In this document: positions 1,407 to 19,038 of the stretch, piece after piece
Position numbering within the stretch: position 1 is the stretch's first letter
How the letters are laid out: each line of letters opens with the position of its first letter
IMG/VR virus record: IMGVR_UViG_3300015374_000025
Coordinates: 1-39,383 of that record
Reading direction: 5' to 3' (one strand)
Length of the DNA: 39,383 nt
From: a virus
Notes under the pieces: generated by a model
What the model saw: only the letters and a program-made list of their open reading frames with translations
What the model was told of the DNA's origin: nothing
Database searches by the model: none
Position numbers and translations under genes: made by a program

Positions 1407-4400
1407 TCATGCTGAATCCCGCCAGGCGAAGCTGGGCTCGCTGGCTTCGGCGATGATCTGGACGCCGTGCAGCTCGCTGGTCATGCACTCGACCAGCGCG
1501 GCCGTGGCCTCCTCGGCCTCGTCCTCGGGCACGTGGACCACGAGCTCGTCGTGCACCGGCAGCAGCGTGGCGTCGCCCCACCTGGTGCCGGACCACCGCA
1601 TCAGCGAGTCGATCAGTAGCTCGCGTGCGGTGCCTTGGATGCAGTAGTTGGGGGCGGCGTAGCCGCGATCCTTGGGCATGTAGATCGTTCGGCCTGAGTA
1701 GGCCTGGAACTCAGAGCGGCCGCTCTCCACGGCGTCGGCCACCTGTCGGGACCACTCGGTCAGACCCGGGGTCATGTGGTCCATCGCGTCGATGATCGCC
1801 CTGGCAATCGGCTCGCTTACTGGTGGATCGGACGTGATGAGTCCGTTGAGCCCGGAGCCGTAGAGACGGCCGAAGACTTTGCGCTTGGCCTGGTAGCGCT
1901 CGGGCTTGCCGGCGCCCGGGCCCCACACCAGCTGTGCGATCTCGCGGTGGATGTCCCGATCAGGGTCGGCCACGATCGCCTTGAGGTTCGCGTCCTGGCT
2001 CAAGGCCGCCGCCACCCGCAGCTCGACGCCAGAGAAGTCGGCCGAGATCAGCAGGTGCCCGGGATCCGCGGTGATGCAGGCCCGGAAGCCGCCCTCACGT
2101 GGCACCTGCTGCAGGTTGGGCCGGACGCAGGACATGCGCCCGGTGTCGGCAGCCAACGTGTAGATCGTTGGCCGCGCCCTGCCATCACCGCGTTCGATCA
2201 GCTCGGTGTACTGGTCGAGGAACAGGCCCAGCCGGTTCTCCGCCACCTGGTAGGCCAGCCGGGCGCGCACCAGGTCGCCAAGCTCGCCGTCGGCCTTTGC
2301 GTACCGGTCGATCGCGCCCTTGGCCACGCTGGCCCGTCCGGTCTTGGTGCGCGGCAGCTCGGCTCCGAGTCGCTCGAGCACAGTGGCCACCTGCTGGTCG
2401 CTGCCTGGGTTCTCGATGCCATAGGCGTGCAGCTGTTGGGCGGCCGCTGCGAGGTCGGCGGTCTGCTCGGCGTGCAGCCGGGCGGTGTGCTCGGGGTCCA
2501 GGCGCAGCCCGCGATCCGCGACCCGGGCTGTCATCTGGTGGGCAGCGCGCTCGCGTTCGAGCAGGGCCGGCTCGGGCTGGGGAAGGAGCTCGGCGATCGC
2601 GGCATCGTCGAGCACGTCGCTCGCCGCGTAGCGGATCATCGTCTCGCTGGTGGCCGGGACGTTGGCCCAGCCGGATCGTTCGATCGGTGTGGTCGGCTTC
2701 ACCTCGGTCAGCCACTTGCCGGCCTTGAACAGCGCCGCCCTGGCCTCGTCGGCCGCCGGTGCGGTCGCCTCCTCGCCGAGCATCGCCTGGGCGATCTTCT
2801 TCAGACCTTGGTCCGAGCCGGTGGACTGCGGGTCCGCAAGCTTGGCCAGCACCACGGTGTCGTGCATCCGAGCCCACGCTTCCTCGAGGTCGAGCAGGTC
2901 TGCATGGGACAGCGGCACCAGATCGGCGGTCGCCGAGTGGGCGTGGAGCTTCGCCGCAGTCGCCAGGTGCTGGGCGGCCACTGCAGCATGCTCGGGGTTG
3001 CCGCGATCGAGCACCACGGCGAAGTGCTTGTTGCCGAGCTGGATCGTGCGCAGCGCGAAGTCGCGGTGTCCCACCGGGTAGCCGGTGTGCTCGACGTCAA
3101 CCGTGAGGGCGCCGGCTGTCGAGGTGATCGTGCTGAGCAGCTCGCTGGCGTCGTGAACGCTGACCGGTGTCACAGTGCCGTCGCGGGTCACGATCGCCGG
3201 CAGCTCGATGGTCGCGCCGGCGGCTTCGGCTATCGCCGCCAGCCGCTTCTCCTCACGCTTCGCGGCCGCCTTCTCCTTGGCTGCAGGAGTCTGCTCGCGC
3301 TTGGGCTTCGGCGTGGAGGGTTGAGGATCAGCGTTTTCGCTGGTCAGGTCGAGTCCGGCCAGTTCCGGGTGGAGGGTTTGAGGTTTCTGGGTATCGCCGC
3401 CTCCTGTGCGCGCCTGCGCGTGCGTATGCGCGTAGTTACCCCCTGAAAACCCTCCACACCCTCCACCAATTTGGGATTGACTGGGGTTGACCTGCGGAAA
3501 CACCGGTGGAGGGTTGGTGTTCAAACCCTCCACAAACCCTCCACTTTCGGGGCTCAACCCTCCACCGATGGCCTGTGTCGAGGTCGGCGGAGTCGAATTC
3601 ATGCCCGGAAGGAAGCCGCCGGTGTGGACCCGCAGGAGCCGAACGTTGTGCTTGTTCGTCTTGATCGGCGGGTAGCCGAGACGGACCAATGCGCGCCCCC
3701 ACCTGGTCTCGGTGGGTACGGCGTCGGCTCGGAGTCCGGACCGTCGGCAGGAGGCCACGAAGGCCTGGTAGAGCTCACGGCTGGGGGTGCCGGTCTCGCT
3801 GGGTTCGGTCTCCTCCTCGACCCACACACGGATCGGGTCCTGCTCGGCTCCGAGGTTCTCGGCCAGGTAGCGAAGGTGCTCGGGAGCCGCCGTCACGAGC
3901 CCGGTGGTCGGGTCCTCGAGCCAACCTGCGGCCTCGGCCATCATCTGTGCCAGGACGCCGGGAGCCTCGGCCCGCCACGCATCGCTCGAGGTATGGCCGA
4001 TCGCCGATCGGGTCAGCCGTACGAGCTCGGGATCTCCGTCGCAGGGGATGAGCCGTGCCCGGGCCCGGATCGCCGGATCGGTGAGCACCGGCTCGTCATT
4101 GGTGGTCAGCACCAGGGTGTGAGTCGGCCGGAACGTGATCGGGTTCTGGTTCATCTGGTTGGCCGTGAGCTCGCCGCCACCGGTCAGCTGCTTGAGCCGC
4201 TCTTGGGCGAATCGGCCCTCGCGCGGACCCTCATCTATGAATGAGAGCCGGCGGCCCTTGAGGGCGAACACGATCGACTGGTGGGCCTTGGCACCCTCGA
4301 CGCCGAGCAGCCTCGGGTCGGCGGCGTGGGCGTACGAGCCGAGCACCGACATCAGCAGGCTGATGACCTGGGTCTTGCCGCGGCCGGTGTCACCGATGAG

Positions 4401-6101
4401 GATCGGCAGCGCGCGGTCGGCGTACCCGGTCAGCGCGATCGACAGGACCCGCAGGGCCCACCGTCGGGTGCCCGGGTTGGGCCAGACGGCCTCGAGGAAG
4501 GCGTCCCACAGGGGAGTGGGCACGCGCTCGGGAGTGACGCCCGCGGTGTGCAGGTGCGGGGTGCTCGGGTCGATGCGGGCCAGCCAGTGCTCGATCGGAT
4601 CGTCCTCGTGGCAAGCGGCCAGGTCCCACGGGTATCCGCCGGCCCAGAGGATGTGCGGCTGGCTGTCCAGATCGGACAGCTGCACGGCAGCCGGGTGCAG
4701 CCCCGCGGCGACCAGGGCACCCATCTTGCCGGCGATGGCCTTGGCGCCGGCCTGGGTGTGGAAGCGGGCACGTCGCGACGACCGGCCTTTCTCCTCGCCG
4801 TCCTTGTCGCCGTCGGGATCCCCGATCGGCATGAGCTTGGCGACCTCGGCGACGCACCAGTCACGCAGGTCCTTGCTGAGCTCCCAGCGGTCCGGGAGCC
4901 GCAACAGCCAGCCGCCGGAGTCCGAGGCGTAACGGACGACGGGGTACATGCGCTCGAGCACGGCCTGGGCCAGCGGCTGGTCCAGCTGCGCGACTGGGTC
5001 GAACAGGTGAGTTCCGATGACCTCGCGGACGCTGAACATCCGCGGTGGCGCGATCGCCTCGAGGGGCTGGCCGTCGGCGTCCTCGGGAGCCGACGCGAAG
5101 ACAGCGAACTCGTCCTCCCGCAGGCATGGGTCGCGCACGACCTGGTGCACGCCGACGAGTGTCACGGCCTTTCGGGCGCTGGTCAGCAGCATCCGCTCGA
5201 ACTCCTCGCCGCGATCCTCGCCGGCGGTCAGGATGTCCCAGGCGTTGCGCATCTCCTGCAGAGCCCAAGCCGCGCCCTGGTGGCCCTGAGCGGCGGACTG
5301 CACGAGCCCGTGCACGCGCCCGGTCATGGTGTCGTGGCGGCTGCCGGCATCGGCCTTGTTGACGTCGATGACGGCCTGCATGCGGCTGTTGGTGATGTGC
5401 GCACACTCGGGCCGCCAGTCATCGCGCAGCTGGTCCAGCAGGCGCCAGCCCTCGCTGGCGCTCGAAGACGCCGGCGACGCGGCCGCTGCTCCCTCAGACA
5501 GCGCCGCGGCCCAGGCTGCGGGCAGCTCTGCCAGGTCGAACGGGCTGGGCACCTTGGCGCTCGGCAAGCCCTCGGGGGCGTACCAGGTGTAGGTGCCGCC
5601 GACCTCGTGCACGCTCGGCGCGACGACGGCATACCGATGGTGACGCTGGATGATCTCGACGTCGGGGAACTTCGTCACGTAGCGCTGTGCAGGGGCACGG
5701 AACAGCAGGATCCGGCTCGGGCCAGGGCCGTGGAGAGTGCCCCTCGAGGTCGATGTCCAGGTGGCCGGCAGCGTGCCCCATGCCTGCTCGAGCTCGGCGA
5801 GCGTGTCGTTGCCCCGTTTGGTGACGACCTTGGTCGAGCCATCCGGCTGCGTCACGGCCTTGTCGTAGTGGTCGACGTCGATGCCGATCACGCCGTCCGG
5901 CAGCCGCAGGGCGATCGAGCTGTAGGCGTGCGACCCGGCCCAGGCGACGAGCTGCAGCGGGTTGGTGTCCAGGCCCTCGGCGCCCGTGAAGCCGACCGGA
6001 GGCGGGCTCTTCTCGAGCGGGGGCACGGGCAGGATGCAGGGCCAGCCGGCCTGGGCGTAGTCCGCCACGTGGTCGGCATAGGTGCGGGGTGCGGCATTCA
6101 T
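1407..6101 (-). CDS. Prim-pol / helicase / 3'-5' exonuclease / family A DNA polymerase fusion
   Basis: One 1564-residue protein combines a replisome's main activities. Residues ~10-200 resemble an archaeo-eukaryotic-type primase-polymerase domain with the DxD pair D75/D77. Residues ~380-750 form a D5/VapE-like superfamily 3 helicase: Walker A G570-T577 (GDTGRGKT), Walker B D623-E624, and sensor TTND at 666-669. Residues ~830-960 are a Gly/Pro/Lys-rich linker. Residues ~995-1165 are a DnaQ-like exonuclease (D1002, E1004, D1060, Y1158, D1162). Residues ~1180-1564 are a Pol I-type polymerase: motif A D1355, O-helix K1406/F1410/Y1414, and motif C H1517-D1518-E1519. All catalytic motifs seem present. 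It would prime, unwind and copy phage DNA. The ORF has no internal stop, so fusion by a sequencing error is unlikely but should be checked. Confidence 0.93.
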   Translation of the reverse strand: MNAAPRTYADHVADYAQAGWPCILPVPPLEKSPPPVGFTGAEGLDTNPLQLVAWAGSHAYSSIALRLPDGVIGIDVDHYDKAVTQPDGSTKVVTKRGNDTLAELEQAWGTLPATWTSTSRGTLHGPGPSRILLFRAPAQRYVTKFPDVEIIQRHHRYAVVAPSVHEVGGTYTWYAPEGLPSAKVPSPFDLAELPAAWAAALSEGAAAASPASSSASEGWRLLDQLRDDWRPECAHITNSRMQAVIDVNKADAGSRHDTMTGRVHGLVQSAAQGHQGAAWALQEMRNAWDILTAGEDRGEEFERMLLTSARKAVTLVGVHQVVRDPCLREDEFAVFASAPEDADGQPLEAIAPPRMFSVREVIGTHLFDPVAQLDQPLAQAVLERMYPVVRYASDSGGWLLRLPDRWELSKDLRDWCVAEVAKLMPIGDPDGDKDGEEKGRSSRRARFHTQAGAKAIAGKMGALVAAGLHPAAVQLSDLDSQPHILWAGGYPWDLAACHEDDPIEHWLARIDPSTPHLHTAGVTPERVPTPLWDAFLEAVWPNPGTRRWALRVLSIALTGYADRALPILIGDTGRGKTQVISLLMSVLGSYAHAADPRLLGVEGAKAHQSIVFALKGRRLSFIDEGPREGRFAQERLKQLTGGGELTANQMNQNPITFRPTHTLVLTTNDEPVLTDPAIRARARLIPCDGDPELVRLTRSAIGHTSSDAWRAEAPGVLAQMMAEAAGWLEDPTTGLVTAAPEHLRYLAENLGAEQDPIRVWVEEETEPSETGTPSRELYQAFVASCRRSGLRADAVPTETRWGRALVRLGYPPIKTNKHNVRLLRVHTGGFLPGMNSTPPTSTQAIGGGLSPESGGFVEGLNTNPPPVFPQVNPSQSQIGGGCGGFSGGNYAHTHAQARTGGGDTQKPQTLHPELAGLDLTSENADPQPSTPKPKREQTPAAKEKAAAKREEKRLAAIAEAAGATIELPAIVTRDGTVTPVSVHDASELLSTITSTAGALTVDVEHTGYPVGHRDFALRTIQLGNKHFAVVLDRGNPEHAAVAAQHLATAAKLHAHSATADLVPLSHADLLDLEEAWARMHDTVVLAKLADPQSTGSDQGLKKIAQAMLGEEATAPAADEARAALFKAGKWLTEVKPTTPIERSGWANVPATSETMIRYAASDVLDDAAIAELLPQPEPALLERERAAHQMTARVADRGLRLDPEHTARLHAEQTADLAAAAQQLHAYGIENPGSDQQVATVLERLGAELPRTKTGRASVAKGAIDRYAKADGELGDLVRARLAYQVAENRLGLFLDQYTELIERGDGRARPTIYTLAADTGRMSCVRPNLQQVPREGGFRACITADPGHLLISADFSGVELRVAAALSQDANLKAIVADPDRDIHREIAQLVWGPGAGKPERYQAKRKVFGRLYGSGLNGLITSDPPVSEPIARAIIDAMDHMTPGLTEWSRQVADAVESGRSEFQAYSGRTIYMPKDRGYAAPNYCIQGTARELLIDSLMRWSGTRWGDATLLPVHDELVVHVPEDEAEEATAALVECMTSELHGVQIIAEASEPSFAWRDSA
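3313..3565. repeat. Cluster of eight GTGGAGGGTT repeats; candidate replication origin
   Basis: The plus strand has GTGGAGGGTT at 3313, 3369 and 3506. The inverse AACCCTCCAC is at 3448, 3524, 3535 and 3556, and a 9/10 match abuts the first at 3457-3466. The cluster lies within the DNA coding the linker between the helicase and polymerase halves (residues ~846-930). The repeats fall in different codon frames (read as GGGL, as VEGL and as GGF), so the conservation seems to be at DNA level. Clustered repeats of this kind are typical iterons to which replication proteins bind. No origin function has been shown. Confidence 0.6.
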
Positions 6102-6125: not shown

Positions 6126-6446
6126 CTAGTTCTGGTGGTGGTTGATGTAGGCCTCGACGAGCTCGGCTCCGAGGCGGCCGCGTTGCGCAGTCGTGAGACC
6201 GTGCTTGAGCGCCCAGGCGCGTACGGTCTTGGCAGTGACTCCGCGGGCCTTGAGCTCCTGATCGACGCGGTTGCCGTGGATCGCCCGGCGTTCGGCCTTG
6301 ATCGCGGCCGTCAGCTTCTTGTCGAGTCGGTCCAGGCGCGCGACGGCAAAACTCTCGCCGCGGCGCACAGCGCTGGCCTTCTCGTGCTGGGTTCGGCGCT
6401 GAAGAGATTCGAGGCGCTCGAGCCGAGTGCCGGTGCGAATGGGCAT
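6126..6446 (-). CDS. Lsr2-like DNA-binding domain protein
   Basis: The protein is 106 residues long. The C-terminal ~40 residues (TVRAWALKHGL...RGRLGAELVEAY) match the C-terminal DNA-binding domain of Lsr2, the actinobacterial H-NS-like nucleoid protein; the RGR motif inserts into AT-rich minor groove in Lsr2. The N-terminal part is basic and helical, and differs from the usual Lsr2 dimerisation domain. It lies just before the polymerase fusion gene (24-bp gap). It could organise phage DNA, compete with host Lsr2 or help at the origin; none of these is shown. The gene upstream ends 3 bases before its start. Confidence 0.75.
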   Translation of the reverse strand: MPIRTGTRLERLESLQRRTQHEKASAVRRGESFAVARLDRLDKKLTAAIKAERRAIHGNRVDQELKARGVTAKTVRAWALKHGLTTAQRGRLGAELVEAYINHHQN

Positions 6447-17799: not shown

Positions 17800-19038
17800 A
17801 TGGCCACCTTCGACAAGCTCCCGTCAGGGAAGTGGCAGGCCTCCGTCGTCACGCCGATCAGGCTGGCCAACGGACGGCACAAGCGGATCACCAAGACCCA
17901 CGCGCTCAAGCGCGTTGTCGAGGACTGGGCGGACATCCAGGAGGGTGCGATCGCCGCCGGCACCTGGACAAGCCGTACGGCCTCGAATGCGAAGCGCGAC
18001 CTGACGCTGGGGGAGTACCGCGAGCTGTGGGTCAAGACCCGCATCGCCGACGGCGCGACCTCGGCCAAGAACGAGTCGCAGTGGCGAACGCACATCGAGC
18101 CGGTGTGGGCCGGCCATCCGCTGAGCCTCATCACGCGCCAGGAGATCAAGGCCTGGGTGCACCGGATGCACACCGAGCAGTGCCCCGGCTGCAGGGCGTA
18201 CCCCGGTACGACTCAGACGGGCGTCCTGCGGCGCCACAAGCGGCCCTCTGGCACGATCTGCTCGCGGGCGGGCGCCGCGCCCGGCCTGGGCGCTTGGACC
18301 GTGCAGGGAGCCGCGGCGCACCTGTCCGGTCTGCTGTCGGCTGCGGTCGAGGACGGCCTGCTGGACGCCAGCCCGGCCACGCAACTGAACCTGCCGACGG
18401 CCGCGCCCAAGCCGATCTTCTACTGGACCCGCGAGGAAGCCTCCGCCCTGCTGCTCGAGCTCGGCGGCAGCGACGCCTTGGCGGTCGACCTGAACATGCA
18501 CATCGGTCTGCGCCCGGGCGAGCTGTTCGGCATGCGCCGGCAGTACGTCGACACGTCGGCCTGGCTGATCCACGTGCACGGCGTCGCGACCAGGCGAGGC
18601 TGGCGGCCGTACGCCAAGACGACCATGAGCCACCGCGCCGTGCCGATCCCACGGCACCTCCGCGAGCCGATGCTGGCTCACGTGCTCGACCTCGGGCCGG
18701 ATGACCTGGTGTTCCCCGGCCCGCAGGGCGGCTTGCAGAACGATCGCAACTACGCGCAGCGGGTGTTCGAGCCCGCACTGAAGCGCGCCAAGGTCCGGCC
18801 GGGCACGCCATACGACATGCGCCACACTGCGGCGTCCTGGCTCGTGCAGCTCGGCGTCGACCTGCTGCGCGTACAGGAGCTGCTCGGCCACGAGAAGTAC
18901 TCGACGACGCTGCGCTACTCGCACCTGCGGCCCGGCCAGTTCGGCGAGGTCATCGACGCCTGGGGAAGCGAGCCGCTGGATCCGCGGGGCAATCCTGCGT
19001 CCCCATCACGTCCCCATACGTCGATCGAGCCGCGCTGA
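17800..19038 (+). CDS. int: Tyrosine site-specific integrase
   Basis: A 412-residue protein with an N-terminal arm/core-binding part. The catalytic domain shows GLRPGELFG (Arg), the DMRHTAASW motif (H-x-x-R region), LLGHEKYSTTLRYSHL (final His and nucleophile Tyr). An insertion with Cys residues (QCPGCRA...TICSRAGAAPG) lies between the core-binding and catalytic parts and is also seen in other actinobacterial integrases. It follows a GGAG ribosome site. attP lies just downstream, and one arm site is within its 3' end. Confidence 0.95.
   Translation: MATFDKLPSGKWQASVVTPIRLANGRHKRITKTHALKRVVEDWADIQEGAIAAGTWTSRTASNAKRDLTLGEYRELWVKTRIADGATSAKNESQWRTHIEPVWAGHPLSLITRQEIKAWVHRMHTEQCPGCRAYPGTTQTGVLRRHKRPSGTICSRAGAAPGLGAWTVQGAAAHLSGLLSAAVEDGLLDASPATQLNLPTAAPKPIFYWTREEASALLLELGGSDALAVDLNMHIGLRPGELFGMRRQYVDTSAWLIHVHGVATRRGWRPYAKTTMSHRAVPIPRHLREPMLAHVLDLGPDDLVFPGPQGGLQNDRNYAQRVFEPALKRAKVRPGTPYDMRHTAASWLVQLGVDLLRVQELLGHEKYSTTLRYSHLRPGQFGEVIDAWGSEPLDPRGNPASPSRPHTSIEPR
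18996..19016 (+). repeat. attP arm-type repeat pair, int side
   Basis: CGTCCCCAT occurs at 18998-19006 and again at 19009-19017 (11-bp step) in the 3' end of the integrase gene. The whole 21-bp segment differs by one base from the segment at 19235-19255 on the other side of the tRNA core. It is likely an integrase arm-binding site. Confidence 0.65.

Follow-up and report, generated by a model that had tools for sequence, protein, structure and literature searches.

Genomic context and domain organization of the fused replicase

The virus record IMGVR_UViG_3300015374_000025 comprises 39,383 bp, and its whole length was analyzed as a single window. PHROGs matches in the window include integrase, tape measure, portal, terminase and endolysin proteins, which together indicate a temperate tailed phage; the temperate lifestyle is probable, resting on the integrase gene. 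The hosts are likely GC-rich and probably actinobacterial, the actinobacterial link resting on relatives. A near-identity search of phage records using positions 1–25000 of the window returned zero matches.

The locus under study is a fusion replicase gene, whose product joins PrimPol, D5/SF3 helicase, winged helix (wHTH), 3'–5' exonuclease-like and DNA polymerase A (PolA) parts in one chain (Table 1). G and P are abundant in the linker following the wHTH. A gene for an Lsr2-like protein (6126–6446) lies immediately upstream of the replicase gene and is encoded on the same strand.

A structure model of residues 530–826 had a mean pLDDT of 72, with the wHTH part mostly at 80–95 and model residues 60–139 poor. 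A structure search matched this model to ASFV PrimPol, the SaPI5 primase-helicase, NrS-1 and poxvirus D5/E5, SaPI5 Rep being among the D5 helicase matches with a Z-score of 14.0. The wHTH superimposed on the P4 origin-binding domain 1ka8 (Z 9.0, 1.8 Å over 71 residues) and on the RFX-DNA complex 1dp7 (Z 8.5, 2.1 Å over 67 residues). Z-scores near 8 to 9 can reflect a common arrangement in small folds; homology of the modeled wHTH to the P4 domain is therefore a possibility that the fold match supports and does not prove. At the domain and fold level, the replicase contains a D5/SF3 helicase with a C-terminal wHTH of origin-binding fold, and iteron binding by it is inferred.

Table 1. Features of the fused replicase gene, its repeat cluster and the integrase gene; positions refer to the window
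Feature	Position	Strand	Residues or relation	Basis
Fusion replicase	1407..6101	-	1564 aa	Pfam and PHROGs hits, translation, structure search
PrimPol part			aa 14-185 of replicase	
D5/SF3 helicase (DUF5906)			aa 568-672 of replicase	
Winged helix (wHTH), proposed iteron-binding domain	3624..3836	-	aa about 756-826	Structure model and P4 domain match
Wing tip	3645..3662	-	aa 814-819; window residues K814, N816, N819	Column scan and held-out test
Linker, coding stretch hosting proposed origin	3267..3623	-	aa about 827-945	
3'-5' exonuclease-like part			aa 986-1163 of replicase	
DNA polymerase A part			aa 1207-1544 of replicase	
Iteron A, GTGGAGGGTT	3556..3565	-		Exact copy and geometry
Iteron B	3535..3544	-	21 bp from A	
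Iteron C	3524..3533	-	11 bp from B	
Iteron D	3506..3515	+	Inverted relative to C, 18 bp start to start	
Iteron E, one mismatch (GTGGAGGGTG)	3457..3466	-	49 bp from D	
Iteron F	3448..3457	-	9 bp from E, one base common to both	
Iteron G	3369..3378	+	79 bp from F	
Iteron H	3313..3322	+	56 bp from G	
Gap between iterons F and G, proposed melting region	3379..3447	.		GC 0.64 vs 0.70 for gene
Alternating purine/pyrimidine tract	3415..3434	.	20 bp, gene's longest (next 12)	
Integrase gene	17800-19038			PHROGs

A repeat cluster in the replicase linker

Within 3313–3565, the linker holds seven exact copies of GTGGAGGGTT, three on the plus strand and four on the minus strand, and one copy with a single mismatch (Table 1). 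No exact copy was found elsewhere in the whole record, and a control pattern, GTGGAGGGTT read backwards, gave 0 copies. When two mismatches were allowed, the whole-window count (30, with 33.4 expected) showed no excess; the analysis therefore relies on the exact copies, their clustering and synonymous nulls. On the gene strand the copies encode GGGL, GFVEGL, GGGCGGF, NPPP, TLHP and PSTP, i.e., they fall in several reading frames. In synonymous-codon nulls, which keep the protein exactly, the window's top 9-mer (8 copies) compared with a maximum of 4 under gene codon usage and 3 with linker codons permuted, and 0 of 400 shuffles in each of the two nulls equalled the cluster.

An earlier note, made from the sequence alone, had described eight copies, three forward and five inverted, in different reading frames of the linker, with the inverted copies at 3524 and 3535 lying 11 bp apart and those at 3448 and 3457 near tandem. 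These observations held, the count being refined to seven exact copies and one near copy, with spacings of 11 bp for B–C and 9 bp for E–F. Its claim of selection at the DNA level is likewise supported by the synonymous nulls in the window and relatives and by the kept geometry described below.

Conservation of the cluster and its geometry in relatives

Protein- and alignment-based scans yielded about forty fused relatives, comprising IMG/VR records and genomes including Nocardioides, Micromonospora and Jatrophihabitans. Loci L080 and L082 belong to prophages of Nocardioides sp. 503 and Micromonospora zingiberis. The linker repeat cluster exceeded every synonymous shuffle in 39 of 41 genes (22/23 including the window and 17/18 further ones), the exceptions being L036, with a degenerate cluster, and L119, without a clear one. 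The set of 23 genes left out L031, L032 and L034, and held both L035 and L037. L039 and L048 were excluded from all but the earliest repeat counts. L009–L012 and most of L092–L116 repeat other loci, and with some loci being near-copies, the counts are not all independent.

The repeat word itself varies: AACCC is followed by GTCAC, GTCAG, GTCAT, TTCAC, TTCAG, TCCAC, TCCAT or TGCAC, and more distant words are CAACTGTCCG, ATCCGTCAC and AACTGGTCAC. In L104, L033 and L136 the variation extends to bases 1–5. The geometry -(21)-(11)-(18)+(49)-(9)-(79)+ is kept though the word changes. In gene orientation, three same-strand sites spaced 21 and 11 bp are followed by an inverted site 18 bp on and then, after 49 bp, by an overlapping pair 8 or 9 bp apart, a gap of 68 to 101 bp (start to start) and opposite-strand sites. 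This core geometry was present in 22/24 loci; B–C spacing was 11 in 19/21, C–D spacing was 18 in 16/22 and 24 to 29 in 4/22, and E–F spacing was 8 or 9 in 22/22. The search demanded the 8- or 9-bp pair together with broad ranges for the other gaps, so that the E–F value was also a search condition and the evidence lies in the narrowness inside the ranges. The count left out L034 (frameshift) and L037 (linker geometry as in L035, taken as a duplicate). Had relatives shared the linker protein without keeping the repeats, the claim of DNA-level selection would have been refuted; the opposite was seen, the linker protein diverging while the cluster stays.

An expanded cluster of about 20 sites, compared with 8 to 13, was observed on a 158-kb contig (L120, 919–1378 after the match start). 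In host chromosomes the repeat word is not unique to the cluster: exact AACCCGTCAC copies lay inside the prophage cluster in 8/9 cases in G001, 9/22 in G003 and 5/18 in G002, and in 0/4 in G004, whose prophage has the TCCAC word.

It could be argued that a low-complexity linker is maintained at the protein level and that the DNA repeats are a by-product. The richness of the linker in G and P favors this explanation. Against it stand the copies in several frames and on both strands, and it is contradicted by the synonymous nulls in both gene sets, which leave it virtually no room.

Other primase/helicase loci

The unfused primase/helicases of the annotated phages BaileyBlu, phiSASD1, Dismas, Samy and Shaeky lacked the cluster (0/5), which indicates that it is not a general feature of primase-helicase phages. 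Among distant chromosomal relatives, 3/24 (L141, L147 and L152) contained a 9-mer at least 6 times within about 1.5 kb downstream; in L152, CGGCACCCG occurs nine times, in both orientations, roughly 0.6 kb past the helicase match.

Of 48 other PrimPol loci scanned, 10 contained a non-simple 9-mer at least five times, L043 and L077 having been set aside as simple repeats. Nine of these ten clusters lie in the tail of the PrimPol gene or within about 260 bp after it, and the tenth (L063) lies in the tail of an ORF that has no Pfam hit. Just downstream of the PrimPol gene, unrelated 9-mers cluster in both orientations at L050:8864-9163, L062:4747-5030, L064:8727-9038, L068:8949-9221, L069:8813-9107, L076:4666-4896 and L078:8837-9121; Pfam identified the D5 domain in L062, L064, L068 and L069, and in L069 and L078 the protein tails are alike and the words slightly different. 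Similar clusters occupy the coding tail of the PrimPol gene itself in L041:8179-8347 and L044:8110-8261, where a RecA-like AAA domain, not D5, is found.

The gap between the two iteron sets

Gap GC was below gene GC in 24/24 scored loci, the lowest value being 0.39 vs 0.72 in L035. In the window the two iteron sets are present, but gap GC is only mildly low and an alternating purine/pyrimidine tract is found instead (Table 1). The gap holds the gene's longest alternating run in 18/24 loci, with lengths of up to 47 bp. In a synonymous null on this run, from which L034 and L037 were left out, 13/22 loci were matched by at most 5 of 500 shuffles, which supports selection on the run in these loci, and the window by 18 of 500. 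Long alternating tracts in the gap encode T/H/A/R-rich peptides of the linker. That the gap is the melting site is inferred.

Wing residues covary with repeat bases

An unbiased scan of 1290 replicase columns against each variable base (23 loci, L033 left out as its word does not align) ranked residue 819 first for base 6. Residues 814 (base 7) and 816 (base 10) lead once the repeat-encoded linker residues 853–883 are set aside, with residue 819 close behind 814 for base 7. All three residues belong to the wing of the winged helix. When the wHTH and linker were left out of tree building, bases 6, 7 and 10 were seen to change at least 8, 11 and 8 times; in phylogenetically independent pairs the agreement was 7:0, 7:0 and 6:0 (one base-7 pair without a difference), with median p values of 0.016, 0.016 and 0.031, respectively.

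A rule linking wing to base was fixed on the 23 loci before further loci were examined. As a proposed code, K/R/W at residue 819 would specify G and N/H would specify T at base 6; at residue 814, H would specify T and K/R would specify C or G at base 7; and at residue 816, K/R/N would specify C, M/T would specify T and E would specify G at base 10. In 17 held-out loci, 39/42 bases were predicted correctly (N6 14/15, N7 10/12, N10 15/15), compared with a shuffled mean of 24.9, and 0/20,000 shuffles were as good. In the eight held-out loci whose combination of word and wing was new relative to training, 12/15 bases were right. The misses were L031 N7 in training, and L117 N6, L118 N7 and L122 N7 in validation.

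Five of the held-out loci were added after the first 12 had been examined, with the rule unchanged, and the tallied words were assigned by the analyst from printed repeats. Left out of the tally were L119, which has no clear word, L121, a truncated version of L120, and base 10 in L166. No N7 prediction exists for P, T, S or D at position 814; L104 and L124 have T at base 7, and L117, L128 and L162 do not. The shuffle value overstates independence, because some of the held-out loci closely resemble training loci or one another: L098 is close to L018, and L109 and L165 are close both to L035 and to each other.

Natural switches between close relatives follow the same positions. The sisters L015 and L016 have helicases 96% identical and differ in the wing by H814R and K819N, plus other wing differences; across nine paired sites, a manual count found N6 and N7 changed in 18/18 cases and the other eight positions in 2/72. 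L016 holds TCCAC and TGCAC words side by side. In each of the pairs L024/L028 and L018/L100, R816 occurs with C and E816 with G. L136 is 81% identical to the window over residues 530–826 and combines wing residues H/K/K with ATCCGTCAC, whereas the window combines K/N/N with AACCCTCCAC. The pairings fit known base preferences (Arg/Lys for guanine, Asn for adenine, Glu for cytosine) on one or the other strand.

Three wing residues are thus shown to covary with three bases of the repeat, and the wHTH wing is the likely reader of the repeats, on the strength of covariation and held-out prediction only; specific binding is inferred. RFX reads the major groove with its wing W1 (PMC2533330), which agrees with the wing position of the covarying residues, at the level of fold resemblance only. 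The earlier note had named the prim-pol N-terminal part and the Lsr2-like protein for binding assays, and this part is corrected: the likely reader is the wHTH (residues about 756–826).

Recognition of the repeats by another phage or host protein, e.g., the Lsr2-like neighbor, is suggested by the adjacency of that gene to the replicase gene. Against this explanation, the replicase's own wing columns track the repeat bases, and Lsr2-type domains are known to favor AT-rich DNA; we consider it practically ruled out.

A stem-loop origin like that of pRN1, recognized by structure instead of iterons, was also considered. Pairing of sites C and D gives a 10-bp stem and an 8-nt loop, the single-strand fold of 3300–3580 has a z of -5.19, and pRN1 has an essential 100-nt stem-loop 3' of its PrimPol-SF3-wHTH gene (PMC4234260). 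However, the direct-orientation spacings B–C and E–F, which have no hairpin meaning, are also conserved (19/21 and 22/22), the C–D spacing departs to 24 to 29 in 4/22, and the wing covariation predicts duplex reading. The pattern expected of pRN1, a single long stem-loop without iterons, does not apply, as iterons are present; local inverted pairs also fold. This alternative is highly improbable.

A putative replication origin enclosed in the replicase gene

We interpret the cluster as a P4/SaPI-type iteron replication origin trapped in the fused replicase gene and read by the replicase's own wing. This is very likely, with a probability of roughly 0.87, in the absence of binding, replication or coverage data, and origin function is inferred. 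Position, geometry, the fold of the protein and the covariation make it the best reading. The computational results show conservation at the DNA level, a fixed geometry and wing-base covariation; binding, melting, ring loading and origin firing are inferred. The proposal of the earlier note that the cluster is a candidate for the phage origin is thus supported as the best reading, without replication or coverage data. Its placement of the site inside the gene of the enzyme that would use it held for position, use by the enzyme being inferred. The cumulative GC skew check that it had suggested gave no support to an origin here (minimum at 1602, near-monotonic rise).

Covariation identifies the reader of the repeats but is silent on the effect of the reading. 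The wHTH-bound repeats might mainly constitute a control element, acting in autorepression, copy control or handcuffing, with the true origin elsewhere. Wing-base covariation would be equally expected in this case, and the P4 satellite carries crr, a second iteron site. Against a control element speak the lack of further exact copies in the window, the low-GC or alternating gap between the iteron sets, and the placement of the origin at this position in related systems; we regard it as unlikely.

Under the origin reading, the wHTH, which directly follows the D5 helicase within one polypeptide, would insert its wing into each 10-bp repeat, and protomers bound on sets A–F and G–H would assemble helicase rings. 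The DNA between the two sets would melt, with priming and extension carried out by the chain's own PrimPol and PolA parts. An ancestral origin located 3' of a primase-helicase gene, as in PICIs, may have been enclosed when that gene fused to polA, in which case the linker must encode the iterons in whatever frame they fall.

A bolder version, towards which we lean only slightly, posits a three-position code: the identity of bases 6, 7 and 10 in every iteron would follow from residues 819, 814 and 816, respectively. Relatives would switch replicon specificity by wing changes, with 8–10 dispersed sites changing in concert within the coding linker at fixed geometry, and a Z-DNA-prone alternating tract would replace the AT-rich melting element in GC-rich phages. 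The concerted change of eight or more dispersed sites stays unexplained, and the L015/L016 pair, one member of which has both word versions, makes this problem concrete.

Comparison with known systems

No description of this case was found in the open-access literature searched, nor was a PrimPol-helicase-PolA fusion with an internal origin found in the relevant sections of PMC5862659. The finding offers a sequence-only way to locate origins in a probably actinobacterial phage group and allows the iteron to be predicted from its initiator. Few substitutions would suffice to test how initiator and origin co-evolve, and the case would be one of an origin that became enclosed through gene fusion and has been retained at the linker protein's expense.

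In PICIs, the origin is located 3' of rep and has a set of iterons on either side of an AT-rich region (PMC6092414); the C-terminal domains of SaPI Rep and of Cch2 bind iterons situated downstream of the respective genes (PMC7581432). With these pri-rep-ori systems (SaPI5 Rep, Cch2 of SCCmec), the window shares a D5-type or related helicase with a C-terminal DNA-binding domain, and iterons directly 3' of the wHTH coding sequence in two sets; the gap between the sets is in the window a proposed melting region, only mildly low in GC (PMC6092414, PMC7581432). In contrast to PICI/SaPI origins, which lie immediately 3' of rep, that of the window would lie inside the reading frame, between wHTH and fused PolA. 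The window further differs in having repeats of both orientations in fixed geometry and a visible recognition code, and it belongs to a tailed phage, whereas PICI/SaPI are satellites.

P4 alpha shares the wHTH matching the origin-binding domain 1ka8 and combines primase, helicase and origin binder in one chain, but it has a bacterial-type primase (PMC4234260) and no PolA; P4 iterons, unlike those of the window, are not known to lie in coding sequence. The pRN1 protein ORF904 likewise joins PrimPol, SF3 helicase and wHTH, and the pRN1 origin is found 3' of the helicase-wHTH part; pRN1 differs in its 100-nt stem-loop and lack of iterons (PMC4234260). Likeness to RFX-type winged helices is limited to the fold (1dp7), RFX proteins being eukaryotic transcription factors. 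The lambda ori has its iterons within the coding sequence of the initiator gene O, and iterons inside the initiator gene are likewise found in the window. Pfam and PHROGs searches gave no hit to an O-type initiator that would recruit a separate DnaB; the replicase has its own D5 helicase, and in contrast to the lambda type, the window's initiator would itself be helicase, primase and polymerase.
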